A stretch of DNA of 30,491 bases from Chrysochromulina tobinii (taxonomy: Eukaryota > Haptophyta > Prymnesiales > Chrysochromulinaceae), in assembly GCA_001275005.1 (NCBI GenBank), contig JWZX01002263.1, positions 1 to 30,491 on the forward strand, read 5' to 3'. This document shows, piece by piece, positions 9,418 to 29,272 of this stretch. The first letter of the stretch is position 1; every line of letters begins with the position of its first letter. The position numbers were made by a program, and so were the translations under genes. A model generated the notes under the pieces. It was not told the origin of the DNA and did not search any database. It saw only the letters and a list, made by a program, of their open reading frames with translations.

Positions 9418-9420
9418 TCA
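9395..9420. repeat. TCC trinucleotide microsatellite at the 3' end of the hydrolase gene
   Basis: About eight TCC units run into the TCA that is the TGA stop of the minus-strand gene. Length change here would alter the 3' UTR or stop context. Confidence 0.7.
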
Positions 9421-10551
9421 TTGCCTGATGTCCCCGCCCCGCCACACTCGGACGCAGTCGGCTACCGCCTCCCACCGTACCGCCTCGGAGACATACGGCA
9501 CCACGCACGCCACCCGCTCGACGAGGAGCTCCACAAAGGCATGCGCCTCGACGCTCATCACGATGCTCACGTTGGTGCCGGAGCCGGGCGGCAGAGGGCG
9601 ACGATCCACAAAGGTCATGCCGTGCGCGGCTCCGGGGGCACCCGTCGCGTCCACGACTACTTGAAGTGGTTTCGTTTCCACACGAAACAAGTGTGGATGC
9701 GTCGCGAACGCGACCACCATCGCATCGTGCACGGGAGCACCGTCGCACATCTGGCCGTAGCGGCAGTAGCCGTCTTGGTAGACGGCAAAGGCGCGCGCGG
9801 CGAGCTGCGCCGCCGGGCCGCCGCGCGACCGCAGGCCAGCCTGTAATTCCACGGACAGCAGCGCCTGGTGGGTGACGTCTAGCGGCAGCAGCACCAGCTG
9901 GTGCACGTCGGTTGCCGCGTGCGCTGCCCATGCGTCGAGCACGGCTTTGGCGGCGGCCGCATCGTGCGCAAAGTTGGCCTCGGCCAAAGGCGACGCATTG
10001 CCAGCGTGCGCGAGTGCGCCACCCATTAGGATGACGCGCCGGACGAGCCGCGGTAGCGATGGCTCGAGAGCAAGCGCAAGCGCGAGGTTGGTCAGCGGCG
10101 AGAAGCAGAGGATCGTAACCTGGCCGGGCGCGGCGCGGATCGTGGAGACCATCCACTCGGATGCGGAGGGCTGCACCGCCGAGCTCGCGTCGCAGTCCGA
10201 TACGCTCCCGCCGAGGCCACCGAAGCCGTCAGTGCCATGGATGAATGAGCCATCCGGCACAGGGTCTCGGGTAGAGCCGCCGTATGGCACGCGCGAGCCA
10301 ACGTACACGGGCACGTGATAGGCCGCGGCCATCAGCGTCTTTGCGTTCGCCGACGTTTGGCGCACGTCAGAATGCGAGCCAAAGCTTGAGGCGACGCCGA
10401 GAATCTCCAGCTCTGTCGAGGCTAGCGCGAGGAGCAGCGCGAGGCCATCATCGCCACCCACATCCGCGATGACGATGCACGGCTCGCGGGGGACAGTCGT
10501 TGCGCTGGTGCTGACTGCAAGGGCCAAGAGCAGGAAGAGTCGAGGATGCAT
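9418..10551 (-). CDS. Secreted inosine/uridine-preferring nucleoside hydrolase
   Basis: An intronless 377-residue protein of the IU-nucleoside hydrolase family, which cleaves the N-glycosidic bond of ribonucleosides with a bound calcium. The metal loop reads ADVGGDDG (Asp30, Asp34, Asp35). Compared with the usual D-x-D-P-G-x-D-D loop the first Asp is Ile28, while the catalytic/metal Asp30 and the Asp pair remain. Further family marks are SPLTNLA, ILMGGAL, EANFAHD and HDAMVVA (His275-Asp276, matching the conserved C-terminal metal Asp). I start at the ATG complementary to 10549-10551 because it opens directly with a signal peptide (MHPRLFLLLALAVSTSA, cut near residue 17). An in-frame ATG at 10653 would add 34 polar residues ahead of it. 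Export to the surface, a vacuole or the medium for nucleoside salvage is inferred. Confidence 0.88.
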   Translation of the reverse strand: MHPRLFLLLALAVSTSATTVPREPCIVIADVGGDDGLALLLALASTELEILGVASSFGSHSDVRQTSANAKTLMAAAYHVPVYVGSRVPYGGSTRDPVPDGSFIHGTDGFGGLGGSVSDCDASSAVQPSASEWMVSTIRAAPGQVTILCFSPLTNLALALALEPSLPRLVRRVILMGGALAHAGNASPLAEANFAHDAAAAKAVLDAWAAHAATDVHQLVLLPLDVTHQALLSVELQAGLRSRGGPAAQLAARAFAVYQDGYCRYGQMCDGAPVHDAMVVAFATHPHLFRVETKPLQVVVDATGAPGAAHGMTFVDRRPLPPGSGTNVSIVMSVEAHAFVELLVERVACVVPYVSEAVRWEAVADCVRVWRGGDIRQ

Positions 10552-11069
10552 CTTTGGATGACGAGGCGGAGCGCCCTGCGACCACCAGACCTCCTTGCAG
10601 GACCGCCACAGGAACTGCTCACAGGAACACTCTCGTTGAGAAAGACGAAACATTGACTAAAACGAAACTTGACTTACACGACCGTGACCGAGTAGCCACA
10701 GTAGCAGCACATTTCGCAGCGGAACTTCCCACACCTGTCCTGCATGCCCTACCATAGATTCTGAGCGAAGCTGCGAGAGAGACGCTCGTGGGAATGTGCG
10801 GTCTTCTCTTGCTCACGTATTGCTCACGAGAGGCGTCACTTGAGGGGCTTTAGAAGAAACCCGGCCACTACTCACATTGTTCCGTAGGAAGTGTGGCGCG
10901 GCCGGGTTTCGCCCGCATGCAGCATCCGAAGATGGGTTTCGCCCAAAAAGTTGTTTTCGATTGTTAGCCAAAAAACAACAAAGGGCTCAAGGCCCACAGC
11001 AAGACCTTTCGTGGCCCGCTTTCAACTAGCGCCACCTCGCTCTAACCTCGCTCCGCCCGCTTCGCCGCC
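10552..11069. promoter_or_regulatory. Shared upstream region of two divergent genes
   Basis: About 520 bp separate the divergent start codons of the nucleoside hydrolase (minus) and the ARM/CAP-Gly gene (plus), so both promoters and 5' UTRs must lie here. The part near 10950-10985 is AT-richer, with AAAAAACAACAAAG. No TATA box or known element could be called with confidence. Confidence 0.55.
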
Positions 11070-14000
11070 ATGACCCGAAAGGGCGGGCGCGTCACCGCGG
11101 ATCAGGTAAAGACGGCCGGCGGCCCGGCGCAGCTCATTGCCCAACTCGTATCCGATCTGGTCAAGGGCACTCATGAGGAGCGCGCTGCGGCGGCCCTGAC
11201 ACTCAAGTGCCTAACCGAACAAGCGAGCATCCACGATCTCAAGGAAGGAAAGCGCAAGGAGAACTCCGAGCTCATCGCCGAGGCGGGGGCCATCCCCGGG
11301 CTGAGCGAGGCGATTGAAATCGGGGGGGCCGGGCCGCACGCGCTCGCTGCGCTCGCTAATATCTGCTTGGGGAGTGCCAAATACCAGCAGCAACTCTTGG
11401 ATGCGGATGGCGTGCCGCGGATCGCCAAGGGCCTCCGCGGGGGCGACCCACCCACGCAGACCGCAGCGGCCGCGGCAGCTGCCTCCTTGTCGCAGCTCGT
11501 CGCATCTCGCCAGCCGCTGGTGAACGTGGGCGCGATCGTGAGCTTGGTGCCTCTGCTGAAAGGTGGCCACGAGGCACAAGTGCACGCAGCGCAGTCGCTC
11601 GCCGAGCTCGCGAAAGGCTTCGGCACCGCCGGCGCCCACTCGATCGCGGCGCTCGCGCAGTCCAAAGGAGATTCTCTCGATGCCCCCCGCGCCAAGGTGC
11701 AGACGGCAATCGCCAAGGCCGGGGCAACCGAACTGCTCGTGAGCATGCTCGAGTCGGGTAAGGCGCAGGAGGCGGCTTCGCACGCACTCGAGAGGCTCGC
11801 CGAGGGGAACGAGGAGATACAGGCCGAGATCAATGCCAAGGGCGGCATCCCCCGCCTCGTGGCTTTATTGGGAGTGGTCAACATCGACACGCAGGCACAC
11901 GCGGCGGGCGCGTTGGCAGCCATTGCGAGCGGCGACAACACCGACGAGCAGGTCAGCTCATCCGGAGCGATGGGGACGTTGATTGCGTCTGAGTGCGTCT
12001 GATTGCCTCCTTCATCAGGTTAGCTCATCCGGAGCGATGGGGCCGTTGATTGCGTCTAAGTGCATCTGAGTGCATCTGATTGCCTCCCTCATCAGGACGC
12101 CATCGCCAAGGTTGGGGGCATCCGGCCGCTGCTCGCCCTTGCTGACTCGCGCTATCCGCAGACGCAGCGCTCTTCCATCAACGCGCTGGCGTGCCTCGCA
12201 CGCAATAACACGACGAACCAGAATACGATCGTCGAGTTTGGCGGCTTGAAGCCATTGCTTAGGATCATCCAGCCGGGGAGCGGGTACATGCATGCTGATG
12301 GCATGGCTGACTGCCCCCTTTTGGATTGTGCCTTCCTGATAGGGCCTCGGAGTTCTCCTCTCGCCTTCCCTCTCACCTCCCCTCTCGCCCTTTCCCGCAG
12401 ATACACCAACGACGTGCAAGAGCAGGCGGTGTTCGCGCTCGCGCAGCTGGCTCAACACAACCATGAGAACCAGAGCAAGATCGGCGAGACGAATGCGGCG
12501 GCGTCGCTCGTGGGATTGCTCCGTCGCTCGGGCGTCCCTTCCATCGAGACGGAGGTGAGCCCTTGACTGCAATTGATTGCACTTGATTGCACTTATGGAT
12601 GTTACTTGATGGCCCCTGATGACGTCTGGTGACTGCTGATGGCTCCTGATGACGCCTGATGGCTGCAGATGGACCGTGGTGATGTCTCATGTCCCACGAT
12701 GGCCCTTGATTGAATACGAGTGCCCCTTGCCTGCCTCCCAGTCCCCCTCGCCCTCCCCCTCCCCCTCCCCCCCTCACCCCCCTCCCACCGAGCGTAGGTG
12801 TGCGGCGCGCTCTGGGTACTCTCCGAGCAACACATGCCTAACAAGGTGGCCATCAGCGAAGCGGGTGCCATCAAAGACATCGTGGCACAGCTCTCGCCGG
12901 CTTCGCCAAAGTCGACGGAGCTCGCCGAGCGCGCCCACTACAACGCGTCCAACGCGCTCGCCTCGCTCGCGGATGGGAACCCGGCCAACCAGGCAGAGAT
13001 CACGCCGCTCTTGGTGAGCCTCCTCGAGCCGGGTCCGAAGCCGGTACGTGTGCACGCGATGGAGTGCGATGGAGTGCGATGGAGTGCGATGGAGTGCGAT
13101 CGATTGCGAATGAGAGCGATGGATTCGAATTGGATTGGAGTGCCATTGATGCAATTGGAGTGCCGTAGATCCAATCGGATTCGAATTGGATTGGAGTGCC
13201 ATTGATCTCGCCAGCGAGGACGTCTCGTCGAATGCATGCACAGGCCCTCCCGCCGTGACCTCTTCTGATGAGACTCTGATGAAACTCTGAGGATGCTCTG
13301 ATGACCTCGGATTGCCTCTATCATCAGGTCCTCCGCGCCGTCGCCATCCTCTGGCGGATCATGCGTGAAAACCCATCGTGTGGCATCGGGATCGCAGCCG
13401 CCGGACCAGTCGAACCTCTAGTGCGGCTCTTGCTGAGCGACCAGCCTGAGATCGAAGCGTACGTAGAGCCTCTTCGAACTCCTCTGATGAGCTCTGATGA
13501 GCTCTGATTGCCTCTCTCATCAGGTACGCGCTGTGGAGCCTCTCGCTGTCGATCGAGCGATCCAACCAGCACATCGTCACCAACGCGGATGGCATCCAGC
13601 CACTTGTAAGGCTGCTCAGCGCCAAGTCAGGCCAAATGCGCGAGCAGGTGCGCGGACTGCCCGAGGGCGCCTGAATGCATGCATGCGCGAGAAGGTGGTA
13701 CGGGTCATCCACTACCTCGCTCCGATCGCATGATTACCTGATTACCTGATCTCGGCATTGATTGATTACCTCCCTCATCAGGCGGTACGGGCCATCCACT
13801 ACCTCGCGCTCGACAATACCGAGACTCAACGAGCGATCGTTCAGCAAGGAGCAACGGCACCCCTGATCGCTCTGCTCGCGGGCGAACGAACGGGCGACTC
13901 GCTGCACCATGCAGGTGATCACCATTGATTGACCATGATCATCAATGGATTGCCGATGAGCACCACTGATGCGCACTGGCTGCCCATGATTGCATGCAGT

Positions 14001-17000
14001 CGCGGCCCTCTCCGAGCTCGCTCTGTAACTGACTGACTGACTGGCTGCCCATGATTGCATGCAGTCGCGGCCCTCTCCGAGCTCGCTCGCAATGCGGCGA
14101 ATGCGGATGCGATCTATCAAGGGGGCGTGCTGGTGCACCTTGTAGCCGTGCTCAAGGAGCCAAATGGTCTGCCGACGACGAAAACGTGCGCGGCCTCGAC
14201 GCTGGCGCTGCTCAGTACGGCGCCTCTGGAGGAGGGGGGAGCTGGAGGCGGCGGCGGCGGCGGCGCTGCTCCGGCGGCGGCGGCCAGCGCCGCCACCGAC
14301 AAGGACAAGGACAAGGACAAGGACAAGGACAAGGACAAGGACAAGGAGGAGGCGGTGGCCGAGAAGGGCGGAGATCAAACCACGATCGCCAAGATCAAGG
14401 CGGCCGAGAGGGAGAAGAAGGCGGCAGCGGAGGCGAAGCTGGGCGAAGAGAGGGCCAAGAGCGTGATACGCGCCAAAGCGGTCGCAGCGGCAGGCGCCAT
14501 CCCACCCCTTGTGGGCCTGATGAGAGGCGAATGCGGCCTCGAGGCTCAGAAAGAGGCCGTGCGAGCGCTGTACGCGCTGGCGGATGATGAGCAGAACCGG
14601 CGCTCGATTGCCGAAGGCGGAGGCATCGACCCCTTGATGGACTTGCTTCACAGCCCGGATCAAGTGATGCGTAAGCATGCGGAGGGAACTCTGGCTCGCC
14701 TCTCGTTGGTCGACTCGAATCAAATGCTCATCATCAAGCAGCTGGTGCGCATGCCTTGATTGCACCTTGATTGCACCTTGATTGCTCATCATCAAGCAGC
14801 TGGGGGGCATGCTCGACCTGCAAGCGATGTGCAGCGTCCCGCTGTGATTGCCCCATAAGTGCCTCATAATCGCCCCTGGTTTTCCCGAATCGCCTCCCTC
14901 CTCAGGTACACAACTGATGAGCCATGATGACCTCTTGATGACCTCTCATGACTCTAAATTACCTCCCTCATCAGGTGGGCATGCTCGAGAAGGAAGCGAC
15001 GGGTTCGGAGCAGGCGGCCGCGTGCCTCGCCAATCTCGCCTGCGAGCTGCCACAGAGCCGCGATTCCATCGTCGAAGCGGGCGGGATCCCGCGCCTGCTC
15101 GCGCTACTGATCTCGGGCTCCGCCAAGATCAAGGCGCATGCTCTGAGCGCGATCGCGGAACTTGCACTCGGCAACCAAAAGATCCAAAACCTGGTTGGCT
15201 CGGACCCGAACGGCATCCCGGCGCTCGTGGCCACGATTACGAATGCAACGGCGAAGGAGACGAGTGCGATGAGCCTCTGATGACCTCTGATGACCTCTGA
15301 TGAACACTGATTGCCTCCCTCATCAGGACGGCGAAGGAGACGAGTGCGAGGAGCCACTGATGACCTCTGATGACCTCTGATGAACACTGATTGCCTCCCT
15401 CGTCAGGACGGCGAAGGAGACGAGTGCGAGGAGCCACTGATGACCCATGATTGCCCGCCTGATGGCCGATGATGACCTCTGAGTGATCTGTAATTGCCTC
15501 TGATGACCCATGATTGCCCGCCCTGATCGCCTATGTTGACCTCTCCCCGTGGCCTCTGAGTGATGACCTCCGATTGCCCATGATGACCTCTAATTGCCTC
15601 TGACGACCTCTGATGACCTCCCTCATCAGGTACCCTCTCGATCTGGACGAAATCGGCGCTCGCCATCTGGCGCATCGCCGACGGCAACAGCGAGAACCAG
15701 CGACGCTTCCTCATTGAGGGCGCCATCTCGCCGGTGGTCGGTCTGCTCACGAACAATCTGAGCGTCGAGCTCAAGGTGAGCTCTGATGACGATCGCAATC
15801 TCATCGCCCAGCTCTGATGACGATCGCAATCCTCGCCCAGCTCTGATGACGATCGCAATCCTCGCCCAGCTCTGATGAGCTCGGGTGAGCTCTGAGGACA
15901 CGTCTGATTGCAACCACCATCAGGTCAACGCGGCGGGTGCGATAGGGGTGCTCGGTCGCGGCCAGTCGGACAACCAAGCTGCTCTCATACGCTGCGGAGC
16001 CATCCCTCTACTCTGCTCTGTCATCAAGGAAGGCTTCCAGATTGGTGGCAGTCCTCCGACAGGCAAGCTCCCCGATGCTGATGTCCTCGCTCATTGCCTG
16101 CAAGCTCCCTGATGGCCCCCTGATTACCCCCTGAGCGCCCCCCCTTATGGCATGCTGATTGCCTCGCTCATTGCCTGCAGGCAAGCCGCTTGAGATGATC
16201 GAGGAGTCAGCGAATGCACTCTGGGCGATTGCAGATTCGACAAACACGGCGTACAAGGAAGCGGTCGCTGAAGGGGGCGCCGTGGCGCTCTTGATGAACG
16301 TGCTCAACAACTGCGCCTCCAAACGCACTGCCGGTGAGAGTGCCTCCAACGGCCTCATAGGCTCAGCTCGTGCATGCGAGTGCTCACCACGGCGCCCGTG
16401 CCTCCAACGGCCTCCTCGGCCCAGCACTAGCCCAGCAAGTGCATGCAAGTGCTCACCACGGCGCCCCCCTCCCCACAGACGTTTCCTCGGCCGGGCTGGC
16501 ATCGCTTGCGGACAGATGTAACGACAACCTGATGGCCATCGTCGAGGCGCAGGTGGGCGCGCGCTCGAGATTGCATGCAGATGAGATCGCATCGAGATTG
16601 CATCGAGATTGCATGCTGATCGCGAGAGTTTCGAGTCGCAGGTGGGCGCTCTCAAAGTTCGTGTGTCGCCCGTCCGCGCCATCCGTCTCCTCTCAGCCTT
16701 CGCGCAGCTCTGTGGCAACGGCAAGGCGGTGCAAGACGCCGTCGCTCATCGCGAGGATGCGATCCGTAGCCTTGTCGATTGGCTCACAACGCCAAATAAG
16801 CTCGTGCAGGCGACGGCGGCGCAGGCGGTGCTCGCGCTTGTCTCCAATAACAAAGGTCCGCAGACGATCGTGGGCAACGGCGGTGCCATCCCAGCGCTGG
16901 TCAAGCTCCTTGAGATCAAGTACGCCCGATTGCCACTGATTGCATCTGATTGCCTCTGAGGATGTTGACGATTCCCCCTGATGACGCTCGCGATCGCCAG

Positions 17001-20000
17001 GTACTTTGAGGAGGGCGTGCTCGAGGCGCAGCGGTTCGCAGTGATGGCACTGTGGCACTTGGCCTCGCTCGGCAAGAACCGCACACTCATCGAGTCTGCC
17101 AAGGGCATCCGGCCGCTCATCACGATGCTCTCGGCCGAAGGTTCGTCACGTGATTGCCACTGATTGCCACTGATTGCCAACTGATGGTTACTGATTGCCA
17201 CTGATTGCCATTGACTGATCATCACGATGCTCTCGGCCAAAGGTTCGTCGGTTCCGTTACTTGCCTCGATGGTTCTCTTTCGGATCGCTCACCACGGCGC
17301 CGAGCTCGTGAACGCGATCGTGGCCTGCGACGGCATCGAGCCACTCATCAAGATTCTCGTGACCGGTGCCCCCGCGTCCAAGCAGATGGCGGCCGCAATC
17401 ATCGCCGCGATCGCTATGGTACGTGCCGAGCCACATCTGCGTGCTTCGTGGTCTGAGAGCTCTGATGAGCTCTGATGAGATCTGATGAAGGTCGGATGCC
17501 GTGGTGGGCGAGCTCTTAGGAGCGCTCTGATGATGTCTGATTGCCTCCGCCATCAGGTTCCCGAGCACCGGAGCGCCATCGTGAGCGCGGAGGCGCTATA
17601 TCCGCTCATCGAGCTGCTAGTCTCGAACGAGCTCGGCACCCCCGAGGCGGCCGCGCGCGCCCTCACCCACCTCGCGCGCGCCGACGGCGAGCAGCAGACA
17701 GCCTCCCCCGCCTCCCCCGCCTCCCCCGGGGCGTCCCCCACTGCCCCACGTACCGCCTCCTTCCGGAGGACCAGCTCCGAGATTAGCGCCGAGATAAGCG
17801 CCGAGATCCTCCTAGGTGAGCATGGGGTGCTTGATGAGGAGGGTGCGGCGTGGCGCAAGTCGGCGATCGACAACGCGAGCGGCGTCAAGTGGCTTGTGCA
17901 CATGCTCGATGGCTCGAATCTCTCAAAGGGGAAGCACCTTCTGAAGCCCCCAGCTGTTGGCGGCTGGCCGAGCTTGCGTGTGGGGATCGTGAGCTGCCAT
18001 GAGACCGAGGAGATCTTCCCAGGTTCGAATGTGGATTTCGGCGCCAAGATTGGGATGCAGGAGCAAGCGGCGGTAAGGGCCGCTGCTCAGGACTTCTGAG
18101 TGCCGACGAGTGCCGCTGAGTGCCTCTGAGTTCCGCTCGTGCCGTGGATGACCTCCCTCATCACGATTGCTGTGGATGACCTCCCTCATCACGATTGCTG
18201 TGGATGACCTCCCTCATCAGGCTGCGCTCGCCGAGATGGCGAATGGCGACGTGAACATGCAAAGCACCATCTTGCAGCTCGGGGGCCTGCCCTACCTCCT
18301 CTCGCTCATGCGCAGCGGCTCTCCCTTGGCTCAGGAGTACGCAGAATGCATGCGAATTGCATGCTGATTACCACTGATCACTGATGATGACCACTGATGA
18401 TGACCACTGATGACCACTGATGACCTCTTGTCACCTCTGATGACGTCTGATCACGCCCGATCGTCTCCTTCATCACCTCTGATGACCACTGATGACCTCT
18501 GATGTCCTCTGAGGACCTCTGATGACGTCTGGTCACGCCCGATCGTCTCCTTCATCAGGTACGCGGCACGCGCGCTCTGGCACCTTTCGACGCAGCTGCC
18601 CAACCAATACGTGTTCGTCCAAAACAACGCCATCCCTGACTTTGTGGCGACGCTCCGTAACGGCTCATCCCTCGCCCAGATGCTCGCTGCCGCGTCGCTC
18701 GCGGAGCTGGCGCAAGGATACATTTATCAGACGCAGGGCGCCGAGATCGCATTCGGTTCGCGAGCGGATTGCCTTCGGATTGCCTTCGGATTGCCTTCGG
18801 ATTGCCTTCGGATTGCCTTCGGATTGCCGCTGAAGGCCTCCATGCTGACGACCCTCCTCAGGCACCGACGGAACGCCAGATAAGTACGCGGGCACGTTCG
18901 CGTTCGTCGACGCCACGAATCCAGAGCCCGACAGGCTGCGCACGATCGCAGACGCGCAGGGCATTGTGCCCTTGATCAAGCTGTGCTCCAGCGGCACGGA
19001 GGAGGCGAAGGAGAAGGCGGCCGCGACGCTCTGGCACCTCGCTCTGGACGAGGCGAGCCGAGACTTTATCGGCGCACAGGGCGGCATCAATCCACTCTCG
19101 TTGGTGCTGGCAGGGGGCGCGACTATGGAGGCGATTGGCAATGCGAACCTAGCGCTCGCACGACTCGGGCAGGATAACACCGCAAATCAGACGATGATCG
19201 CGAATGCTTTGATCTCGATGCTCGAGGACTTGAAGTCGCCTCCGACGGCTGAGGTTGAAGTGCGCGCCGTGCATGCCCTGTACTCGCTCGCACTCGCAAA
19301 CGTGACCGCTCCGACGAGCATCATGAAGAACGGCGCGATCACGCCGCTCGTCACCGTCCTGACTGCGGGCAAGAGTGAGGAGAGTCGGACCGAGGCCGAG
19401 AGGCTGCTCCAGCTGCTCGCGGAGAGCGGTGAGTCACACCACACCGCGATCGCGATCGCGCTGGTCAACGTGCTTGGGACGGGCTCGGTGCAAGCGCAGG
19501 AGAATGCGACGGCCCTTCTCCTCACCCTCTCCCCAACGGGCGATGAGCACCTAGCGAAGCGTCAGTCCATCGCGCAGGCCCAGCCCTTCAAGGCGCTCAT
19601 CAAGGAGCTGCGCACCGACTCGCCACGTGTGAAGATGCTCGCAGCGGCGGTCCTCGCGAGGTGATTGCATCGGATGACAGCTGATGGCCATATGATTAAT
19701 CTGATGGCTTCTGATGACCTGTGCTCGCGGCGGCGGCGGTGCTCGCGACCTGGCTGTTCCTGATGGCCCGCGATTGCCCTGGTTCGAGCACGAGTGCCTT
19801 GGCGAGGATGAAAGTCAAGATCTCTAGCTTGTACCAACCCTTTCTGGGAATGCTGAGGCAACCTTTGTCAGACTGAGCCGAGCCTCTTTGAGCACAATCG
19901 CATCTGATTGCATGCGATTGCCTGAATGGGAGTGGGATGATGAGGATCTATACGTATCGCTACGGACTCGGAGGTGTTCACACCTTTGACGATTGTATCG

Positions 20001-23000
20001 CTCTGACCGCTGAACGGCCCGCCTTCATTGCTCGGATGACCTCTGATTGCCCTCTGAGTGCCTCTGATGACCGCTGAACGACCCGCTCTCCACCCGCGTT
20101 CATGGCTCGGAGGGCCTGTGAAAACCTTTGAGTGCCTCTGTACTGCCTCCATGCAAGCCTGATTGCCTCCCTCATCAGCTCTGAGTGCCTCCCTCATCAG
20201 CTCTGATTGCCTCCCTCATCAGCTCTGATTGCCTCCCTCATGAGCCTGATCACCCCTGAATGCCTCCCTCCATCAGCCTGGCGGGCGATTCCGACGACAA
20301 CATGGCCTCGATCGCCAAGGCAAACGGCATCAAGCCGCTCGTCGCACAGCTCGACAGCTCGGATGAGAAGACGACGGCGTACGCGGCGCGTGTGCTCGCG
20401 GACATGGCGCGCAAGCAGGAGGAGTACGCGAAGCAGGTGGCCCAGGCGGGCGGCATCGCGCTCTGCGTCAAGCTGCTCGCCAAGGGCTCTCTCGAGGCGC
20501 AGGTGGGACTGCGTCTGATTGCGCGGCTGATGGCCCTTGATTGCCACTGATGGCTGCTCGCCAATCTCCCTTGATCCTCCCTTGATGGAAGCTGATGGCT
20601 GCTCGCAACGCTTGCTCGAGGCGCAGGCACAGGCGGGAGATTTGCTCAGATCGATCTCGAGGCGCTCGACGGTTGAGGTGGAGGAGGCGGGCGCGGTGAC
20701 GCACTTGATCGACCTACTCTCATCGGAGAGCCTTGACGCGCAGGTAAGCTGATGACGCTCTGATGACGCTCTGATGACGCTCTGATGACGCTCTGATGAC
20801 GCTCTGATGACGCTCTGATGACGCTCTGATGACGCTCTGATGACAAAATGAGTGCGCCTGATTGCCCGCATGATCGCACCTAATTGCCCGTCCGTCTGAG
20901 CCTGGTCTCGTATGGTCTCGCGCACCTAATTGTGCCTACTTGCGACTCACTGCACCTGATTGCCCGTCTGAGCCTGGTCTCGCAGGAGCTTGCGGCGCAT
21001 GCACTGACTGGCATCGCGGCGGGCGGCTGCAAGGAGAAGATTCGAGAATTGGGGGGCATCGAGCTGCTCGTCCGTGTGCTCAAGAGCAATCGCTCCGAGT
21101 CTTCACAGCTCGAGCGTGTGAAGGCGCACGCGGCCAATGCGCTGGCCGAGCTCGCCCGGGACGACGCGCCGATACAGCGCGAGGTTGTCCAGTGTGGCGG
21201 CATCGACGCGCTCGTTGCCGTCGTCACCACCAGTAAGCTCGACTCGAGCAAAGCCCGTGCTGCGGATCCTCTGATGACCTCTGATGACGTCTGATTGCCT
21301 CCCTCATCAGGTAAGCTCGACTCGAGCAAAGCCCGTGCTGCGGGGGCTCTTTGGTCCATGTCGTCCACGAGCCACCAGGCGGTCGTCGCGGCGGGTTCGA
21401 TCGAGTCGTACGCACTGCTTGATGGCCTCTTGATTGCCTCTTGATTGCCTCTTGATTGCTTCTGGCTGGCTCTCGATGGCAGGCTCGTGTCTCTTGATGG
21501 CCTCTTGATGGCCTCTTGATTGCCTCTTGATTGCTTCTGGATGGCTCTCGATGGCAGGCTCGTGTCACTTGATTGCCTCTTGATTGTCTCTTGATTGCCT
21601 CTTGATTGCCTCTTGATTGCTTCTGGCTGGCTCTCGATGGCAGGCTCGTGTCTCTTGATTGTCTCTTGATGGCCTCTTGATTGCCTCTTTATCGCTTCTG
21701 GCTGGCTCTCGATGGCAGGCTCGTGTCACTCGCGGGCAGTGGCGAGCTCGATGGGCGGCAAGAAGCCGTTGGAGCCCTAGCGAGCCTCGCCGCCGATAAG
21801 CCGGACAATCAGCGTCGTATCTCGACCCTACTCACCCAACAGCTGAGCAATGCCAGGCTGGTCGACGATCGGCGGGCGAAGGCTGCGTGGGCCGTTTCCA
21901 AGTTTGCGGCGACGCACAGGTCGAACCAGGACGTTCTCGCTCAGGTGGGCGGCGTCTCACTGCTCGTCAAGCTGCTCGAGCCGGTACACTACGACAGCGC
22001 CAACTCCCCACAGCTCAAGGTGGGCGGTGGCAAGCAGCTTGCTTTGGGCCCCGACTTGCACTCGCGCACGCAGATGGAGCTGTGTGCGGCGATCTGGAGC
22101 GTCACGACTGACCACCCCAAGAATCGTCGCGCGATTGCGGACGCGGGCGGGATCCCGTTACTCATCGCGATGCTCGAGGACCATCCCGATATCCATTTCC
22201 AGGCGAGTGCCGTTAATGGCCTTTGAGTGCCTCTGAGTGCCTCTGAGTGTATCTGAGTGCCGCTGAGTGCGATGCTCGAGGACCATCCTGAGATCCACCC
22301 GAGATCCACCCGAGATCTACCCGAGATCCATATCCAGCCGGCTGGGGCGCTCTGCTCTCACTGAGCATGGATTGCCTCCCTAATTGCATGCAGGCGGCTG
22401 GGGCGCTCTGGTCACTGAGCATCGACGGGGCGAATCTGACGAATCTGGGTGCGGACGGGCGCTCACCAAGCCCATCGGGGGGCGTCATCAAGACCAATCA
22501 GGAGCTGATTGCGGACGCGGGCGGTATCATCAAGCTCATCGACCTGCTCCGCTCGTCGACCAAATTTGGGTCGTCCGCCAGTGCGCAGGTCGCGCAGGAG
22601 ACGATCGCGGGCGCGCTGCATTCGCTCACCGCCCGTCCGCGGAACCGCGAGCTCATCGCTCAGGCCGACGGCATCACGCACATGGTGCCGCTCCTCTTTG
22701 GCAGGTGCGAGACCGAGCTAGAGATTGAGATTGAGATTGAGATTGAGATTGAGATCGAGATTGAGATGCTCCTCTTTGGCAAGTAGGCTGATAGGGCTGA
22801 GCGCCTACTGATTGCACTTGATTGCTTCCAATGGTCCCTGATCGAGCCTGATTGTTCATCACCCGCTCCTCTTTGGCAGCGCGTCGGACCTGACGAAATC
22901 CGAGGCGTCGGAGGCCATGCACGCCCTTGCGGCGGGCAACAAGGAGAACGTGCTGAGCCTGGTGACGCAGACAACCTCATGGTTGGCCAAGACGCCACTC

Positions 23001-26000
23001 GCCGCACAGGAGGCTGCAGGCACGATGGCGCTGCAGGTGATCCACCACACGCTCTCTTGCTGCCCTCTGATGGCCACTGAGTACAGGCTGAGCGCCAGCT
23101 GATTGCCATCCTCATCAGGTCATCCACACGCTCTCGCTCGACGACGACAACCAAGACGCCTTCGCGCGTACCGGTATCATCGGTCAGCTCGAGATCCAGC
23201 TCAACGGTGGCTGCGAGGCAGCGCAACGGCTCGCCGCGAACACGCTCACCAATATCGCCAAGATCTCGATCTCGCTGCGCAAGCAGGTGCGCTCATCATC
23301 AGCGCTGATGACCTCTGATTGCATCGCTCAGATCTCGATCTCGCCGCGCAATCAGGTCTCGCTCAATCTCGTCAAGTTGCTCGTCAGCCCGAGCGAAGAC
23401 ATGCGTAAACGAGCGGGGGCTCTGCTGCAGGACGAGAAGGAGGGTCTGGGCGGTGCGTCCAAGCAGCTGCAAAAGGAGACTGTGATTGCGGGGGGAGTGG
23501 CGCCGTTGGTCGAGCTGCTGAAAGATGGGGGAGGTTACCTCGAGGCGCACACGTACGTGCTGCAGAGCCTCTCGAGGATGATTACGGAAGCCATCTCAGC
23601 TTTGATGAGCCTCTGATGAGCTCTGATTGCCTCTCTCATCAGGTACGCGCTGTGGAGCCTCTCGATGATTACGGATGCCATCTGCCGGGCACGGATCGTC
23701 GAGGAGATGGGCATCCCGGCGCTCACTCGCTCGCTCGCCGACCGCAAGTTGAGCCTCGACGCGCGCGAGAACGGCGCGTCCATCCTCTCCAACCTCGCCA
23801 TCGACCGCTCTTCTCACGAGGAGATCATCGAGAATCGGGCTGTGCCGCTACTTGTGGGTATGCTCGGCTCGACAGAGGAATGGACTACTGCGGGGAAGAA
23901 GCACGCGGCGGTCGGACTCGCACGCTTGGCAGCGGACGACCAGGCGCGTGATTGCATGCTGGTGCTGATTGCATGCTGATTGCATGCTGATTGCATGCTG
24001 ACTCGTACGCTTGTCAGCGGACGAGCAGGCGCGCCAACTGCTCCTGTGCTGATAGCATGCTTGTGCTGATTGCATGCTCGTGCTGAGTGCATGCTGAGTG
24101 TGCATGCCTTTCCGACGAGCAGGCGCGCCAACTGCTCCTGTGCAAGGAGGGCGTCATCGCGCCGCTCGTGCACTGGATTGTGCCCAACGAGGCGCGTGCA
24201 CAGGATGAGGCCGCGGTCGACCCGTCGCTGCGGCAGGTGGCGGCCCTCGCACTCGCTGACGTGGCACGCGGAAATCCGACCGTGCAGACACTGATCACCG
24301 AAGCGGCCGTTCTCGAGCCGTTACTCTCGATGCTCGACCTCAAGACACTGCCCGAAAATCTGACCTCCGCGTGCACGCTGCTGGCCACCCTCGCCGCCGA
24401 CCACCGCGCCAACCAGCTGCAGAGCGCCCAACACGGCGCGCTGCCGCTGCTCGTGGCGCTCATCTCGAGCCCCCCCTCGTCGCAGCCAGGCACCAAGGAG
24501 CGCCACGCTTGATTGCATGCTGATTGCATGCTGATTGCATGCTAATCGCATGCTGATCGCATGCTGATTGCATGTTGATTGCATGCTGATGGCCATGAGT
24601 TGCCTCCCCCATCAGGAGCGCATCCGCGAGCGCGCAGCCCAGGCGCTCGCTATGCTGTGCGACAGCTCCGAGATACAGATCTCGCTCGCCAAGGAGGGGG
24701 GCGTGCCGCCGCTCGTCGCGCTGCTCAGCTCGCCCAATCTGGCCACGCAGGTGATTGCGATGGATTGCAGCTGATCACGATGGATGACGATGGATTGCCG
24801 CTGCTGATTACGCCCAATCTGGCCTCGCAGGAGTCCGCCTCTGATTGCCTCTGATTGCCTCCTCTGATTGCCTCTAATTGCCTCCTCTGATTGCCTCTGA
24901 TTGCCTCTGATTGCCGCTGCTCAGCTCGCCCAATCTGGCCTCGCAGGAGTCCGCCGCGCGCTGTTGTGGGCTGCTCGCCTCCGAGCACCTGCCCATACAA
25001 CTCGCCCTCTGGCATCAGAAGGCGGATGAGCAGCTTGCGGTCTTGCTGGGCTCCGACTCGCGCGTCACTCAGGGATGGGCACAAAAGGCGCTGCTGCACC
25101 TCGCCATCTGCTCGGAGAGTCGCGCCGCCATCGTCGCACGCCTCGTCTCCTGCCTGGGTGGACGGAGCACGTCCGCCCAATTCAAGGCGGCCGAAGCTCT
25201 CGCAGATCTCTTGGAACGCATCCCAAACGCGCGCCACACGATTGCTCAGGAAGGCGCGGTCGGTCCGCTCGTCGCGCTACTGGGCACCGGCCAGCGTGCG
25301 GATCGCTTCACGCCGCCAGAGCGCGCGGCGGCGGTGCTGGCGGAGGTGGCGAAGCTCCATGAGAGCAAAGGCGAGATGGAGCCAGATTGCATGCCGGATT
25401 GGATGTGGATTGCATGCCGGATTGCATGCCGGATTTGGATGTGGATTGCATGTGGATTGCATGCTGATTGGATGTGGATTGCATGGTGATGGAACGCAAT
25501 CAGTGCATGCTGATTGCATGGTGATGGCCTCGCTCCGCTCCTCAGGCGAGATTGAGCGTGCGGGCGGGCTAGCGCCTCTGGTGATGATGCTCGGGAGTCG
25601 CGGCGCACAAGCCCATGCGGCATGCGCTCTCTGGCACATGTCGATCGTTGCGAGTAACAAGGCGATCATCCTGCAGCTCGGCGCCGTGCCGCTCGTGGTG
25701 GCTGTCCTTTCGCACGGCGACCGAAAAGCGAAGCCGTCGTGCCTCCACCTGATGCTGCAGCTCGCCTCCTCCTCTGACGCGAAGGCACTCATCGTGCAGG
25801 CGCGCTGATGAGCTATGATGAGCTCTGATGAGCTCTGATGAGCTCTGATGGCCCCTCTGATGGTCGCTTGATTGCGCCTCCTCTGATGACGCGAAGGCGC
25901 TCATCGTGCAGGCGAGGAACTTAACCGTCCTCCTCGCACAGATTGCGACTGATTGCGACTGATTGCGACTGATTGCGACTGATTGCGACTGGTTTCCTTG

Positions 26001-28618
26001 CATGCAGGCGGGGAGCATCTCCGTCCTCCTCGGCATGCTCCAACTCTCCGATCAAATCTCCGATCAAATCTCCGAGCCCGCCCCCGAGCTGGACGTGCGG
26101 CCTGCGCCGTCGCCGCCGCCTTTGTCGGAGGGCGGCAAATCTGAAGGGGTGCCCGATGCACCGGGCTTGTCGGATGGGGTTCATGCGGTCGTCTTGGCAC
26201 TCCTATCGGTGCTCGACACAACGCTCCGAGGGCCTCTGATTGCATTGATTGCGGTCACCTATCGGTGCTCGACACAACGCTCCGAAGGCCTCTGATTGCA
26301 TTGATTGCGGTCGTCGACCCAACTCTCGTCACCCGAGCTGCCCTCGGAGTGCCCGCAACTGCCCTGATGGGATCTGATTGCAGACGATGCTCGCTCTGAT
26401 TGCGCATGATGGGCTCTGATTGCACACGATGCTCGCTCTGATTGCGCATGATGGGCTCTGATTGCAGACGATGCTCACGGATTGCGCATGATTGGGCCTC
26501 TCATCAGGTGCTCGCTCGAGATCAGAAGGCCTACCGGACGGCCATCGTGCAGGGCGGCGGGTTGGCCATTCTCATCCCGATCGCTTGTACCTCGCCTCCG
26601 GGCCCGACACTGCATCACGCGGTGAGCTGATCGCACACTGATTGCACACTGATTGCACACTGATTGCACACTGATTGCATACTGATTGCATACTGATCGC
26701 ATGCTAATTGCATCGCCTGCTGCCCGACACTCCATCACGCGGCATGGGGTCTCGTGCATGCATGCGCTCCCGCGTCTCGTCTATTGCCGCTCATGATCAC
26801 CGATGGCCCTAATTTGGCAGGTGAGCTGCCTGTGGGGACTGGCCCAGGATCCAAGCGTGCGCTCTCGCATCGTCGAGTCGACCGAGATCATCGAGCGGCT
26901 CGTCGCTCTCCTCACGGGCGAGGCGAGTGGAGAGACGCAGAAGATGGCGGCGTCGGCCCTGGTGCTGCTCGCGCAGGATGAGCAGGGTGTTGCGGGGCTG
27001 AGGTGAGTGATTGCATGCTGAGGTGATTGCATGCTGAGGTGATTGCATGCCGAGGTGAGTGATTGCATGCTGGCGTGATTGCATGCTGGAGTCGGCGCGC
27101 ACACTCGGCTCACAACCCTGCTGATTGCCTCCCCTCATCATGATGACCTCCCTCATCAGGCTGGTGGGCGCGGCCACTCGGCTCAACACCCTCCGTTTTC
27201 TCGTCGACGGCTGGCTACAAACGCAGGCATCCATTGTCCTTGAGCTCATCGGCCACGGGGGCGGCGGGGGCGGCGCGGGCGGCGGCGGGGGCGGCGGCGG
27301 CGGCGGTGGAGGTGGGGGCGATGGGGCGTTACTTTTTGGGGCGCCCAAGACGCCGCGTCTCCACCAATTCGTCCGCTCGAATCCGGCGCCTCTCCTCGAG
27401 TGGTACGCCTCATGATGAGCCCTGATGACGCCTGATTGCGATGGACCCAGGTGGATGGCTCCCTGATTGCTCATGATGGTCTACGATTGCCTCCCTCATC
27501 AGGTGCGAGTCGCCGCGGGGGTACATGCCCCTGATGAGCCCTGATGACGCCTGATTGCCTCCCTCATCAGGTGCGAGTCGCCGCGGGGGTACATGCCCAC
27601 GACGCCGCGCGGCGGGATCAGCCCAACCCGACGCGAGGTCAAAGGCGACGGATTGCAATCGAGGGGGCTGAGCGAGACGCTCCTCGCGCGCTGGCAGTCG
27701 AAGCTCGCCACCAACCACCCTGAGCTCAATTGGATGAATCTGCTCGGGCCCAAGAATAGCGAGCAGGGCGACAATCACATGGCTGAGCTCGCGCTCGGGT
27801 TTCGTGTGAAAGAGACGGTCCTTGTGGAGACCGAAGAGAAGACGGGACGCACCGCGACCGTGCAGGTGCACTATGATGACCCGTGATGGCCACTGAGGAC
27901 TTGAAATGGCCACTGATGACCCGTGATGGCCACTGATGACCCGTGATGGCCACTGATGACCCGTGATGGCCACTGATGACCCGTGATGGCCCGCGATCGC
28001 ATGCAGTACATTGGGCGCGTGCCCGAGATAGGCAAGGGCTACTGGATCGGTGTGGAATTCGAGACGCCCGAAGGCAAGCACGATGGCTCCATCGGCACGG
28101 CCACGTATTTCCAGGCCAAGCACGCCCACGGCAGCTTCGTGCGCCCCGACCACATCCGCAGGGTGGGGGGGTCGCCCGGTACGACGCCGGTCGCCGTCAC
28201 GGGCGCAATCAAGGACTCGAGCACGAGCCCATCGCCCAAGGGAAAACCGAACCTCAAGCTCAAGGGAGGCGCCGTCATGGGCACCCCGTCCTCCAAAGAA
28301 GGCGCCGTCATGGGCGCTCCGGGCGGCGCGGGCGGCGCGAGTGCGGCGAGCGCGCGGGGCCAGGGGCGGGGCGACACGAGCGACCGGGCTGGGCGGGGGG
28401 GGCGGGCTGGCCGAGGGTCGCAGCCGGCATCGCAGCGCTCGGCGCGGGGGAAGAAGGACAATGGCCGCGACAATGCCAAGGAGGTGAGCTTCGACACGAG
28501 CAAGGAGCCTCCTCCCCCTGCGACGCGCGAGCCGAAGATGACCAAGAAGGCGAGCGCGAAGAAGTTGAGCAGGGGGCGGTCTGCCATGCAGAAGATTGAC
28601 GAGGCGGAGGACGAATGA
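11070..28618 (+). CDS. Giant armadillo-repeat protein with C-terminal CAP-Gly domain (40 exons)
   Basis: Joining 40 exons across 39 introns gives a spliced CDS of 10,701 nt, or 3,566 residues; every junction keeps frame and restores ARM sequence. The start ATG has a strong GCCGCCATGA context and the TGA stop is at 28616-28618. Almost the whole protein is armadillo repeats, recognised by recurring GGI-x-PLV-x-LL and A-x-x-AL-x-x-LA helices with N-Q/N-R between them. Low-complexity inserts include Gly/Ala plus (Asp-Lys)8 at residues about 690-713, a Ser/Ala/Pro loop in exon 17 and a poly-Gly loop in exon 38. A CAP-Gly domain follows at about residues 3338-3416, then a basic Gly/Arg/Lys-rich tail. 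ARM repeats bind protein partners and CAP-Gly domains bind tubulin or EB-type C-terminal tails, so I infer a microtubule-linked scaffold. Individual splice sites are inferred from frame and family pattern, not from RNA. Confidence 0.85.
11952..12095 (+). repeat. Intron 1: whole intron duplicated in tandem
   Basis: Two head-to-tail copies, 11952-12018 and 12019-12095, each start with GT(C/T)AGCTCATCCGGAGCG and end in CATCAG. No exon lies between them, so either copy could be spliced alone in principle. Confidence 0.85.
13044..13327 (+). repeat. Intron 4: nested minisatellites
   Basis: Holds four GATGGAGTGC units (13058-13097) and a 30-bp unit repeated at 13121-13150 and 13177-13206. It ends with CTGATGA words and CATCAG. 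Confidence 0.75.
13648..13781 (+). other. Intron 6 with a copy of the uninterrupted exon 6/7 junction
   Basis: Inside the intron, about 13682-13722 repeats the end of exon 6 (ATGCGCGAG-AG) joined directly to the start of exon 7 (GGTACGGG-CATCCACTAC), with a few substitutions. Filler follows, then CCTCCCTCATCAG. Confidence 0.75.
13975..14088 (+). repeat. Duplicated acceptor plus exon 8 start
   Basis: A 49-bp segment (13975-14023, repeated at 14040-14088, period 65) carries GATTGCATGCAG and the first bases of exon 8. The first copy runs into a stop soon after, so the second acceptor (14064) must be used for the full protein. Confidence 0.85.
14298..14345 (+). repeat. In-frame GACAAG array coding (Asp-Lys)8
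   Basis: Eight perfect hexamers in exon 8, in frame, inside a low-complexity insert between ARM repeats. Poly-Gly and Ala codons lie just upstream. Confidence 0.9.
14745..14974 (+). other. Intron 8 with a copy of the uninterrupted exon 8/9 junction
   Basis: About 14785-14815 repeats CTCATCATCAAGCAGCTG (end of exon 8) fused to GG-GGCATGCTCGA (start of exon 9). The true donor starts GTGCGCATGC, itself a copy of the exon 9 start GTGGGCATGC. Confidence 0.78.
15248..15487 (+). repeat. 80-bp tandem units spanning exon 9 end and intron 9
   Basis: Units start at 15248, 15328 and 15408, exactly 80 bp apart. Each has the end of exon 9 (ACGGCGAAGGAGACGAGTGC) followed by CTGATGACC words; the first two close with CATCAG and CGTCAG respectively, and the third decays into filler. 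Only the first unit is coding. Confidence 0.88.
15780..15876 (+). repeat. Intron 10 tandem units
   Basis: Three copies of a unit of about 30 bp (GCTCTGATGACGATCGCAAT plus a CTCGCCCA-type end) start at 15780, 15811 and 15840, with a partial fourth at 15869. Confidence 0.8.
16334..16478 (+). repeat. Intron 12: duplicated segment
   Basis: A segment of about 60 bp with GTGCCTCCAACGGCCTC and GTGCTCACCACGGCGCCC occurs twice (about 16340-16402 and 16400-16466). Parts resemble the end of exon 12 and the start of exon 13. Confidence 0.65.
17117..17249 (+). repeat. 31-bp direct repeat bridging both ends of intron 15
   Basis: 17117-17147 and 17219-17249 match at 30 of 31 positions. Each contains AAG|GTTCGTC. 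The intron 17141-17242 runs from AG|GT of the first copy to AG|GT of the second, with TGATTGCCAC filler between. Confidence 0.88.
17701..17812 (+). repeat. Low-complexity coding insert in exon 17
   Basis: Tandem GCCTCCCCC units code for SPASPASP. Further on, tandem GAGATTAGCGCC-type units code for EISAEISAEI. Both sit in frame in a loop between ARM repeats. Confidence 0.7.
18144..18220 (+). repeat. Intron 17: three copies of the acceptor module
   Basis: Units of 28 bp start at 18144, 18172 and 18200, each with GATGACCTCCCTCATCA. The first two end in CATCAC and only the last in CATCAG, so just one copy is a usable acceptor. Confidence 0.88.
18434..18557 (+). repeat. Intron 18: duplicated acceptor module, upstream copy inactive
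   Basis: A 42-bp segment at 18434-18475 recurs at 18516-18557 with one difference. The upstream copy is followed by C (CATCAC), the downstream copy by G (CATCAG). Confidence 0.85.
18767..18828 (+). repeat. Intron 19: GATTGCCTTCG minisatellite
   Basis: Five perfect 11-bp units and part of a sixth fill the centre of intron 19. Confidence 0.9.
19661..20276 (+). other. Intron 20, the longest, with repeated acceptors
   Basis: At 616 bp this is the largest intron. CATCAG occurs at 22-bp spacing (ending 20178, 20200, 20222), then a CATGAG, then the true acceptor ending 20276. About 19722-19760 looks like a decayed copy of the exon 20/21 junction. Two related segments lie at about 20005-20040 and 20070-20115. 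No gene was found in it. Confidence 0.7.
20503..20626 (+). other. Intron 21 whose acceptor is a copy of the exon 21 end
   Basis: Exon 21 ends CTGCTCGCCAAGGGCTCTCT followed by CGAGGCGCAG. The intron ends CTGCTCGCAACGCTTGCTCG followed by AGGCGCAG. The acceptor AG is therefore derived from duplicated coding sequence. Confidence 0.78.
20751..20844 (+). repeat. Intron 22: GATGACGCTCT minisatellite
   Basis: Eight 11-bp units and a partial ninth follow the donor. A second duplicated segment with CTGAGCCTGGTCTCG precedes the acceptor. Confidence 0.9.
21233..21343 (+). repeat. Perfect 33-bp direct repeat defining intron 23
   Basis: 21233-21265 (start of the intron) and 21311-21343 (start of exon 24) are identical over 33 bp, beginning GTAAGCTCGACTCGAGC. 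The offset equals the intron length, 78 bp. The rest of the intron is CTGATGACC filler and CCTCCCTCATCAG. Confidence 0.92.
21408..21730 (+). repeat. Intron 24: four copies of acceptor plus exon start
   Basis: CTCGATGGCAG|GCTCGTGTC occurs with AG ending at 21482, 21557, 21643 and 21718 (spacing 75, 86, 75). Only the last continues in frame into exon 25. Between them lie TTGATTGCCTC words. Confidence 0.88.
22203..22393 (+). other. Intron 25: GC donor and internal exon 25/26 junction copy
   Basis: The donor is CAG|GCGAGT and the acceptor is CATGCAG|GCGGCT. About 22269-22368 repeats the end of exon 25 (GCGATGCTCGAGGACCATCC onward, with an expanded GAGATCCACCC part) joined at 22337/22338 directly to the start of exon 26 (GGCTGGGGCGCTCTG). 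Confidence 0.82.
22691..22879 (+). repeat. Exon 26 end repeated inside and at the end of intron 26
   Basis: CTCCTCTTTGGCA occurs at 22691 (exon), 22769 (middle of intron) and 22866 (acceptor). A GAGATT hexamer array of eight units fills 22721-22768. Confidence 0.85.
23261..23355 (+). repeat. Intron 28: acceptor is a copy of the exon 28 end
   Basis: 23261-23286 and 23330-23355 match at 24 of 26 positions; the first ends in the exon's AAGCAG, the second in the acceptor AATCAG. The offset is 69 bp, the full intron length. Confidence 0.88.
23553..23683 (+). repeat. Intron 29: exon 30 start repeated at the donor
   Basis: The intron's first 44 bp copy the first 41 bp of exon 30 with four substitutions and a 3-bp insertion, both starting GTACG and containing GAGCCTCTCG and ATGATTACGG. 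Confidence 0.85.
23944..24122 (+). other. Intron 30: GC donor and clear internal exon 30/31 junction copy
   Basis: 24001-24049 matches the last 28 bp of exon 30 at 25 of 28 positions, followed without a gap by the first 21 bp of exon 31 at 21 of 21. It then runs into TGATAG. The donor is GACCAG|GCGCGT and the acceptor GAGCAG|GCGCGC. Confidence 0.87.
24498..24615 (+). other. Intron 31: GATTGCATGCT array and possible GA donor
   Basis: Seven 11-bp GATTGCATGCT-like units fill 24511-24587. The likely junction is ACCAAG|GAGCGC to CATCAG|GAGCGC, giving a GA-AG intron that keeps frame. A GT donor at 24453 is an in-phase alternative. Confidence 0.65.
24721..24955 (+). repeat. Intron 32: three copies of exon 32 end and an uninterrupted junction
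   Basis: The last 30 bp of exon 32 recur at 24801-24830 (25 of 30) and 24917-24946 (29 of 30). The middle copy is followed directly by GAGTCCGCC, the start of exon 33, so it is an intron-free junction copy. Filler between is TGATTGCCTC. Confidence 0.86.
25371..25545 (+). other. Intron 33: GC donor that repeats the exon 34 start
   Basis: The donor side is AAAG|GCGAGATGGAGC and the acceptor side TCAG|GCGAGATTGAGC. The interior is built of GATTGCATG words. No in-phase GT donor was found nearby. Confidence 0.78.
25800..26007 (+). other. Intron 34: GC donor and internal exon 34/35 junction copy
   Basis: About 25875-25941 repeats the exon 34 end (GACGCGAAGGC-CTCATCGTGCAG) joined at 25911/25912 to a diverged exon 35 start (GCG-GGA then CCGTCCTCCTCG). 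CTGATGAGCT and GATTGCGACT arrays flank it. Confidence 0.78.
26203..26314 (+). repeat. 56-bp tandem repeat across the exon 35 end
   Basis: CTATCGGTGCTCGACACAAC and the following bases occur at 26203 and again at 26259. The first copy holds the end of exon 35 and the donor. GATGCTCGCTCTGATTGCGC units follow in intron 35. Confidence 0.85.
27257..27319 (+). repeat. Poly-Gly coding tract in exon 38
   Basis: GGC/GGG codons give a Gly run broken by one Ala, in a linker between the last ARM repeats and the CAP-Gly region. Confidence 0.85.
27503..27598 (+). repeat. Duplicated acceptor plus exon 39 start (68-bp period)
   Basis: CCTCCCTCATCAG|GTGCGAG and the following bases occur with AG ending at 27502 and 27570. 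The first copy of the exon start runs into CTGATGAG filler, so only the second leads to the CAP-Gly exon. Confidence 0.87.
27797..28165 (+). other. CAP-Gly domain, split by the last intron
   Basis: Exon 39 ends with GFRVKETVLVETEEKTGRTA and TVQ. Exon 40 resumes with YIGRVPEIGKGYWIGVEFE, the signature GKHDGS (usually GKNDGS) and GSFVRPDHI. Removing 27866-28006 joins TVQ to YIGRVP exactly as in CAP-Gly proteins (TVRYIG), which confirms that splice junction. The His in place of Asn in the signature is unusual. The tail after it is Gly/Arg/Lys-rich and probably disordered. Confidence 0.9.
27883..27990 (+). repeat. Intron 39: 20-bp tandem array
   Basis: About five units of GTGATGGCCACTGATGACCC, the first one degenerate, fill the intron that splits the CAP-Gly domain. 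Confidence 0.88.
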
Positions 28619-29072: not shown

Positions 29073-29114
29073 GCGCTGCACTGAGCGCTCCCCTTTCTAG
29101 ATGGAGCAACATTC

Positions 29115-29272
29115 GCAGTCCGCCGTGCTCGAGCTTCGTCAACATGAGCAGTCCGCAATGCTAGAGCTTCGTCAACATTAGCAGTCCGCCGTGCTCGAGA
29201 TTCGTCAACATTAGCAGTCCGCCGTGCTCGAGATTCGTCAACATTAGCAGTCCGCCGTGCTCGAGCTTCGTC
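29115..29272. repeat. Five-unit 33-bp tandem array
   Basis: Units start at 29115, 29148, 29181, 29214 and 29247. Each has GCAGTCCGCCGTGCTCGAG and then TTCGTCAACATTA, with few substitutions. Confidence 0.92.

Follow-up and report, generated by a model that had tools for sequence, protein, structure and literature searches.

The birth of spliceosomal introns has long been an open question, with few cases caught in the act, and the locus described here raises it in a concrete form: from what source did a single gene obtain 39 introns, many of which hold copies of the exon sequence at their own junction? The window, by which we mean the whole stretch of 30,491 nucleotides that was analysed, is contig C1147 of a 53.15-Mb genome of 2,253 contigs. 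The gene in question has a eukaryotic structure and lies on the + strand at 11070..28618, with 40 exons and 39 predicted introns that leave one open frame of 3,571 aa once spliced; Pfam matches place an Arm domain at 18966-19664 and a C-terminal CAP_GLY domain at 27983-28618, both on the + strand.

Introns and their own exon junctions

The gene model was obtained by a Viterbi procedure, which gave 40 introns, and was then corrected by hand to 39 introns between 11952 and 28006, the same count and end points as in the preliminary description of this DNA. The corrections followed the reading frame and the logic of the ARM repeats; a few also drew on the duplicates, and for this reason the uncurated 40-intron model was tested too. 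The donors are GT in 33 introns and GC in six, and the 10,716 bp of coding sequence compare with an intron total of 6,833 bp. Many of these introns are packed with 10-11-bp repeats of the TGATTGC and TGATGACC type, and CATCAG forms the terminal 6 nt of 18 of the 39. Within introns 1-39, TGATTGC occurs 99 times in sense and twice in antisense orientation; antisense copies should be harmless inside an intron, yet they are nearly absent, which suggests an orientation-bound source. Phases 0, 1 and 2 are represented by 21, 8 and 10 of these introns, respectively. Beside the gene, a 2,576-aa IQ-motif ORF at 1247-8977 (+) and a 411-aa nucleoside hydrolase ORF at 9418-10653 (-) both run without interruption, so that intron gain looks gene-specific. 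On the other flank, two CCTCCCTCATCAGG ends on the minus strand at 29635-29745 adjoin a minus-strand LRR frame at 29966-30457, and this is probably another gene with the same introns. A 33-bp unit repeated five times (91% match) occupies 29107-29272, outside any assigned gene.

Each whole intron was matched against the 40+40 nt of its own spliced junction. The mean score was 18.87 against 9.54 under shuffled pairing (z 20.7; 0 of 20,000), and the own junction took the top rank for 21 of the 39 introns. Compared with pieces taken 60 or 100 nt away in the same exons, the introns stayed at the null (z -0.7 and 0.2). The preliminary description had seen such copies in most of the 39 introns; the pattern is real but holds individually for about half of them, namely 19 of 39 at an FDR of 0.05 with 1,000 random exon segments per intron as the null, the other 20 having no significant junction copy in that test. 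It had also proposed aligning the flanks against shuffled pairings, and in this splice-site-anchored form an excess is found on both sides, with z 9.7 for the intron start against the next exon start (donor side) and z 10.5 for the intron end against the previous exon end (acceptor side), the uncurated model giving 6.9 and 8.8. The cross controls (intron start against previous exon, intron end against next exon) are flat at 20 nt and rise to z 4.3 and 7.1 at 60 nt, in agreement with copies situated further into the intron. GC donors are paired with a downstream exon that starts with GC in five of six cases, against 6 of 33 for the other introns (Fisher p 0.004), a coincidence to be expected of donors that were copied from the next exon; donor positions +3..+6 also match exon positions +3..+6 above shuffles (0 of 20,000). 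The splice consensus by itself yields a weak in-register similarity, and the copies might be attributed to chance, to this shared consensus or to an artefact of assembly. We consider such an origin extremely improbable. Shuffled pairing retains the consensus and is nevertheless far exceeded, and by this control together with that of the displaced exon pieces chance and consensus were rejected; against misassembly stand the many different identities of the copies and the exact match of a Lon protein considered below.

The anatomy of the copies can be written X-f-X: a coding stretch (X), a filler patch of TGATTGC-type intron repeat (f), then X again. Judged from its sequence, intron 23 (21233..21310; this and all following introns on the + strand) appears as the clearest young case, with X at 21233-21265 identical to 21311-21343 over 33 nt (100%; q 0.002) and a filler at 21266-21310 that supplies a branch-like CTGAT, a pyrimidine tract and the CATCAG acceptor. 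X lies over the junction in intron 15 (17141..17242; q 0.002), at 17117-17147 / 17219-17249 (31 nt, 97%) with f at 17148-17218, and in intron 13 (16553..16641), at 16542-16560 / 16631-16649 (19 nt, 95%), the latter not significant alone. The next exon is copied at the intron start over ~41 nt (84%), with filler after it, in intron 29 (23553..23642; q 0.002) and partly, over 12/12 nt, in intron 27 (23037..23118; not significant alone), while the exon end is copied at the intron end over 17/17 nt in intron 26 (22705..22879) and over 33 nt (88%) in intron 28 (23287..23355), both at q 0.002. An exon-start copy lies within intron 35 (26209..26507; q 0.002), an exon-end copy within intron 36 (26622..26820; q 0.002) and a weak junction copy in intron 24 (21408..21718; q 0.047).

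By alignment spans, eight introns (6, 8, 20, 25, 30, 32, 34 and 37) contain within them the exon-exon junction copied without interruption, a form absent from the list of the preliminary description, and this fits repeated events of the type X-f-X-f-X. Intron 6 (13648..13781) has X at 13693-13720, f at 13721-13779 and X at 13780-13807 (score 34 against a null maximum of 18; q 0.002), and intron 8 (14745..14974; q 0.002) has X at 14725-14754, f at 14755-14782 and X at 14783-14812. A copy of the exon end and junction (82% over -25..+6; q 0.005) lies inside intron 20 (19661..20276); intron 25 (22203..22393; q 0.002) begins with a GC donor, as does intron 34 (25800..26007), where X at 25775-25802 / 25887-25914 (96%) places the junction copy between two unlike fillers (score 44 against a null maximum of 18). 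Intron 30 (23944..24122) has X at 24020-24049 identical to 24114-24143 and two filler stretches (score 44 against a null maximum of 17), intron 32 (24751..24946; q 0.002) takes its donor, GTGATTGC, from filler and its acceptor from the copied exon end, X being at 24719-24751 / 24915-24947 (97%), and in intron 37 (27003..27159; q 0.002) the whole junction is copied in degraded form (68%). Numbering assumed equal, eight of the twelve introns that had been named as examples pass (8, 15, 23, 26, 28, 29, 30 and 32), and 13 (q 0.29), 21 (q 0.11), 27 (q 0.11) and 33 (q 0.37) do not. The claim that coding segments were duplicated locally at the junction, with many cases in one gene, is borne out.

Recurrence in other contigs and predicted exact restoration by splicing

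The junction-copy pattern is not special to the window gene. A comparison set of 195,557 bp was taken from 20 other contigs, eight of them (L009-L016) chosen by motif density and 12 (L017-L028) by contig number. For the 67 terminal CATCAG-type acceptors in this set, the first 40 nt of the next exon resemble the 500 nt upstream of the same site at z 21.5, and at 35 of the 67 the exon-start copy beats the upstream DNA of every site in another contig; the following 40 nt of exon, compared as a control with the same 500 nt in the 20 contigs, gave z 1.2 and were best in 5 of 67. The density is uneven, nine of the 12 contigs picked by number being without any CATCAG-type terminal acceptor. A scan of the window and these loci for direct repeats around filler, in which f of at least 15 nt was demanded, returned 61 events, 55 of which were retained as sense-strand events by the strand filter (10 in the window, 43 in L009-L016 and 2 in L017-L028; one of the 55, L012 +855, is probably the reverse-strand reading of an event). 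At an identity of at least 95% (42 events), X has a median length of 30 nt (quartiles 24-33, range 20-67, an X longer than 54 nt including filler) and f one of 58 nt (range 21-195). The two copies are identical in 25 of the 55 events, with X of 20-54 nt, and among the 35 rows with copies of at most 55 nt their identity ranges from 0.80 to 1.00, which fits different ages and gives qualitative support, with no clock fitted, to the age series that had been suggested for these introns.

Splicing could restore the message exactly: a GT-AG pair that removes precisely X+f is present in 33 of the 55 events, against a mean of 4.9 and a maximum of 9 in 24 shifted controls. With GC donors allowed too, the contrast is weaker (38/55 against a mean of 15.7 and a maximum of 31), and 17 of the 55 have no restoring GT/GC-AG pair. 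Three layouts can be distinguished, in which X is the exon start only and the acceptor comes from the filler (14/55), X is the exon end only and the donor comes from the filler (9/55), or X spans the junction and supplies both splice sites (15/55). The earlier proposal that the outer AG|G pairs became the splice sites describes the last layout well, but neither the two in which the filler contributes a site nor the events that lack a restoring pair. The insert length modulo 3 is 0, 1 and 2 in 15, 20 and 20 of the 55 events; since only 15 are multiples of three, the inserts are not, as a class, in-frame coding inserts, and most would break the frame unless spliced.

One gene, encoding a Lon protease on contig L015, is backed at the protein/transcript level. 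The entry P0005 (JGI, 482 aa) comes from one contig of 2,054 nt, against the 3.3 kb over which the corresponding exons are spread in L015. A contig of that length has no room for most of the intron sequence and is most simply a spliced transcript, although the assembly behind it may be of DNA or RNA. By exact spliced matching, 481 residues of P0005 fit over 10 GT-AG introns. The own junction is the best match in seven of these 10 introns, and in six of the seven the score is 28-37, where the best other intron reaches 12-17. A wrong donor choice doubles conserved residues (VLDPAQNG, VLFLATAN), and the corrected protein, in a query that still held two extra residues, aligns with single copies to solved Lon proteases. 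These alignments support, outside the window gene, the rule that the duplicate and the filler are removed together.

A protein search with the window gene returned relatives only, with no near-identical spliced sequence over introns 23-28. The frame of P0125 (63% identical; a 378-aa frame, on contigs up to 12.5 kb) runs through the positions of introns 25-28, and that of P0001 (79% identical in the aligned part) is continuous through the positions of introns 8, 9 and 10. P0002, which comprises 36 member sequences and is identical over 222 residues, crosses the position of intron 8 and departs at intron 9, which may reflect intron polymorphism within the species. That the frames are short and the contigs long suggests genomic DNA lacking these introns, a reading that is suggestive only, as the source assemblies may be DNA or RNA. 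These relatives bear on the view that no intron was gained, and that old introns have instead grown by minisatellite-like tandem duplications which swallowed exon edges. Expansion of this kind is clear in three window introns: in intron 7 (13915..14064), acceptor end and exon start are duplicated inside the intron (31/31 nt; q 0.002); intron 9 (15264..15629) contains 80-bp tandem units that copy exon end and intron (2.5 copies, 97%; q 0.006); and in intron 38 (27403..27570) a 68-bp unit of acceptor and exon start is duplicated, with X of 46 nt at 100% (q 0.002). It is equally clear at 5021-5407 (+) of contig L025, where head-to-tail 78-bp units of exon start, filler and acceptor form an X-f array that is expanding in one intron. 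A CATCAG acceptor end stands immediately before the first exon-start copy in 10 of 42 rows, indicating growth of an existing intron. In 27 of the 35 rows with copies of at most 55 nt, however, no CATCAG precedes the first copy, the coding sequence of the left exon seems to run on unbroken into that copy, and the frames of the relatives run through. As an account of the whole set, growth of old introns thus seems very unlikely to us.

Source of the filler and a proposed route of gain

The filler bears on several ways in which X-f-X might arise. According to the preliminary description, a coding segment containing AG|GN was duplicated in plain tandem and the repeat filler grew later between the copies. 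In favour of this view, the duplicate lies over the junction with both splice sites in the third layout above, tandem duplication is an established route of intron gain that has been demonstrated in vivo (as reported in PMC3443670), and introns that extend over tandemly repeated 24-bp AGGT segments are described from fission yeasts (PMC4974935). On the other side, the filler and intron end GATTGCCTCCCTCATCAGG occurs 2,219 times in the 53 Mb at no more than one mismatch, against none for the reversed-pattern control, and the same 19-nt intron ends are found in the ARM gene, the Lon gene and genes on L012 and L016; such a genome-wide family points to filler that was copied in and not grown anew. 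None of the 25 events with identical copies lacks filler, a count partly built into a scan that demanded it. Among 307 short tandem repeats in a separate scan with other criteria, only 16 were coding-like duplications free of filler, and several of these resembled simple repeats. In 23 of the 55 events, moreover, one splice site is drawn from the filler. Growth of filler between plain duplicates was rejected on the genome-wide family, the identical-copy events and the scarcity of filler-free duplications, and that part of the earlier account is not supported; plain tandem duplication as a general explanation is improbable. An exact search with the 21-nt intron end in viral_contigs and genome_contigs gave 0 matches in each, the window's own or very near genomes being possibly excluded from them.

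A family of this size could also be a transposable element of the introner type, with X as its target-site duplication. One intron end in thousands of copies, the strong sense bias of TGATTGC inside introns and the origin of one splice site from the element and the other from the duplicate, as described for introners (PMC9860276), would all agree with it. The patches, however, are 21-195 nt and the duplicates 20-67 nt long in the 42 events, compared with the 3-9 bp cited for duplicated targets in the same source, and the patch ends share no common sequence: their information does not exceed ~0.5 bit in the span, L-only and none classes, and in R-only patches the 3' end is fixed by its use as an acceptor. 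A transposon with fixed ends was rejected for this lack of a common end sequence. The filler also most resembles that of its own gene. For 14 of 49 patches the best source lies in the same contig, outside 350 nt, against 4.6 by chance (0 of 5,000, adjusted for filler-rich contigs); the result against whole contigs is positive without adjustment as well, and a cruder test restricted to the events gave p 0.07. The sense bias would follow from templates in the same gene, and we regard an introner as an unlikely source. Microhomology over 2 nt was found at both joints, joints other than splice sites included, at 0.36 against 0.29 and 0.41 against 0.28 (0 of 3,000 each). Error-prone repair typically leaves templated patches that show microhomology.

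We propose, with a probability of roughly 0.7, that local repair or replication events duplicate coding DNA and capture an intron patch, whereby introns arise and then grow. In each round, a local event of DNA repair or replication would duplicate ~18-54 nt of coding DNA and place between the copies a patch of ~20-200 nt of intron repeat, made of TGATTGC/TGATGACC units. This patch would be copied from introns already present, with a preference for those of the same gene, and would almost always keep the orientation of the gene. Splicing of the resulting X-f-X would take out one X together with f and leave the message unchanged. With the patch would come a pyrimidine tract and a branch-point-like CTGAT, which we take as the putative branch point. 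Some patches would also carry the acceptor (..CCTCCCTCATCAG) and others the donor (GTGATTGC..), leaving the second splice site to the duplicate, which would supply both if AG|G[T/C] lies inside it. Further rounds at the same site would produce X-f-X-f-X, in which uninterrupted copies of the junction remain within the intron, and the survivors would presumably be the inserts that splice. A filler that has not grown in place, is not a defined element, is of local origin and shows microhomology at its joints favours break repair or template switching, and we infer that the event is either a staggered break with fill-in or a template switch. It can be hypothesised further, although we hold this bolder form to be slightly less probable than an even chance, that introns breed introns without a transposase: the introns of a gene would template the repair of staggered breaks in nearby exons, each repair duplicating ~30 nt of exon and planting a branch point and a 3' splice site, in a process that would be self-reinforcing, would proceed gene by gene and would be ongoing in the lineage. 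The genome seems to hold many recent introns that can still be read, with copy identities reaching 100%, in which the source, the duplication size, the joints and the choice of splice site are measurable, making the question of intron origin directly testable. If the proposed route is true, three models (tandem duplication, break repair and introners) would be joined in one, and intron-presence polymorphism is predicted within the species.

Relation to known routes of intron gain

A literature search, mostly outside subscription journals, showed no report of long variable duplicates with an intron-repeat patch among the titles and abstract openings listed, but each part of the anatomy has its counterpart. 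In the cases of tandem genomic duplication described for ATP2A1, fission yeast and the potato RdRp (PMC4974935), a coding segment at the junction is likewise duplicated and splicing restores the message; in the potato gene, the branch site, pyrimidine tract and 3' site are taken from the parental intron, according to the same source. Here too coding sequence is directly duplicated around the intron, the copies being aligned with its splice sites. In contrast to these cases, an intron-repeat patch separates even identical copies here, individual genes contain many events, and most duplicates (median 30 nt) would not be long enough to form an intron by themselves. An intron that equals the duplicate, with both sites from AGGT, is not what the events scanned show, for which f was at least 15 nt: 15/55 span the junction and 23/55 use a site of the patch. 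Introner elements, known from Micromonas and Aureococcus and from 175 genomes in one survey (PMC9860276), resemble the present introns in forming many related, sense-biased introns that bring one site and take the other from a duplicated target, and many similar introns are indeed found in unrelated genes here. They differ, as far as that account describes them, in their target duplications of 3-9 bp, compared with variable duplicates of ~18-54 nt here; defined element ends and a constant short target-site duplication were not observed, and the patches, without fixed ends, carry filler like that of the same gene.

The closest likeness is to gain by break repair, in which inserted DNA comes to lie between direct repeats from a staggered break (as described in PMC4202315 and PMC3443670). 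The X-f-X events show its features, with filler between direct repeats and microhomology at the joints, save for a proven intron-less allele. In the Daphnia cases of this kind, the repeats copied from the adjacent exon measure 4-12 bp, whereas here the duplicates are longer and the filler is one recurring, intron-derived type. Small tandem duplications of a comparable kind are reported to follow opposite-strand nicks with 43-nt overhangs, through fill-in by Pol alpha-primase/CST (PMC8355091), although neither the creation of an intron nor a filler patch belongs to the outcome described there. The X-f-X arrangement is best called a variant of intron gain by repair, which works like tandem duplication, break repair and introners.
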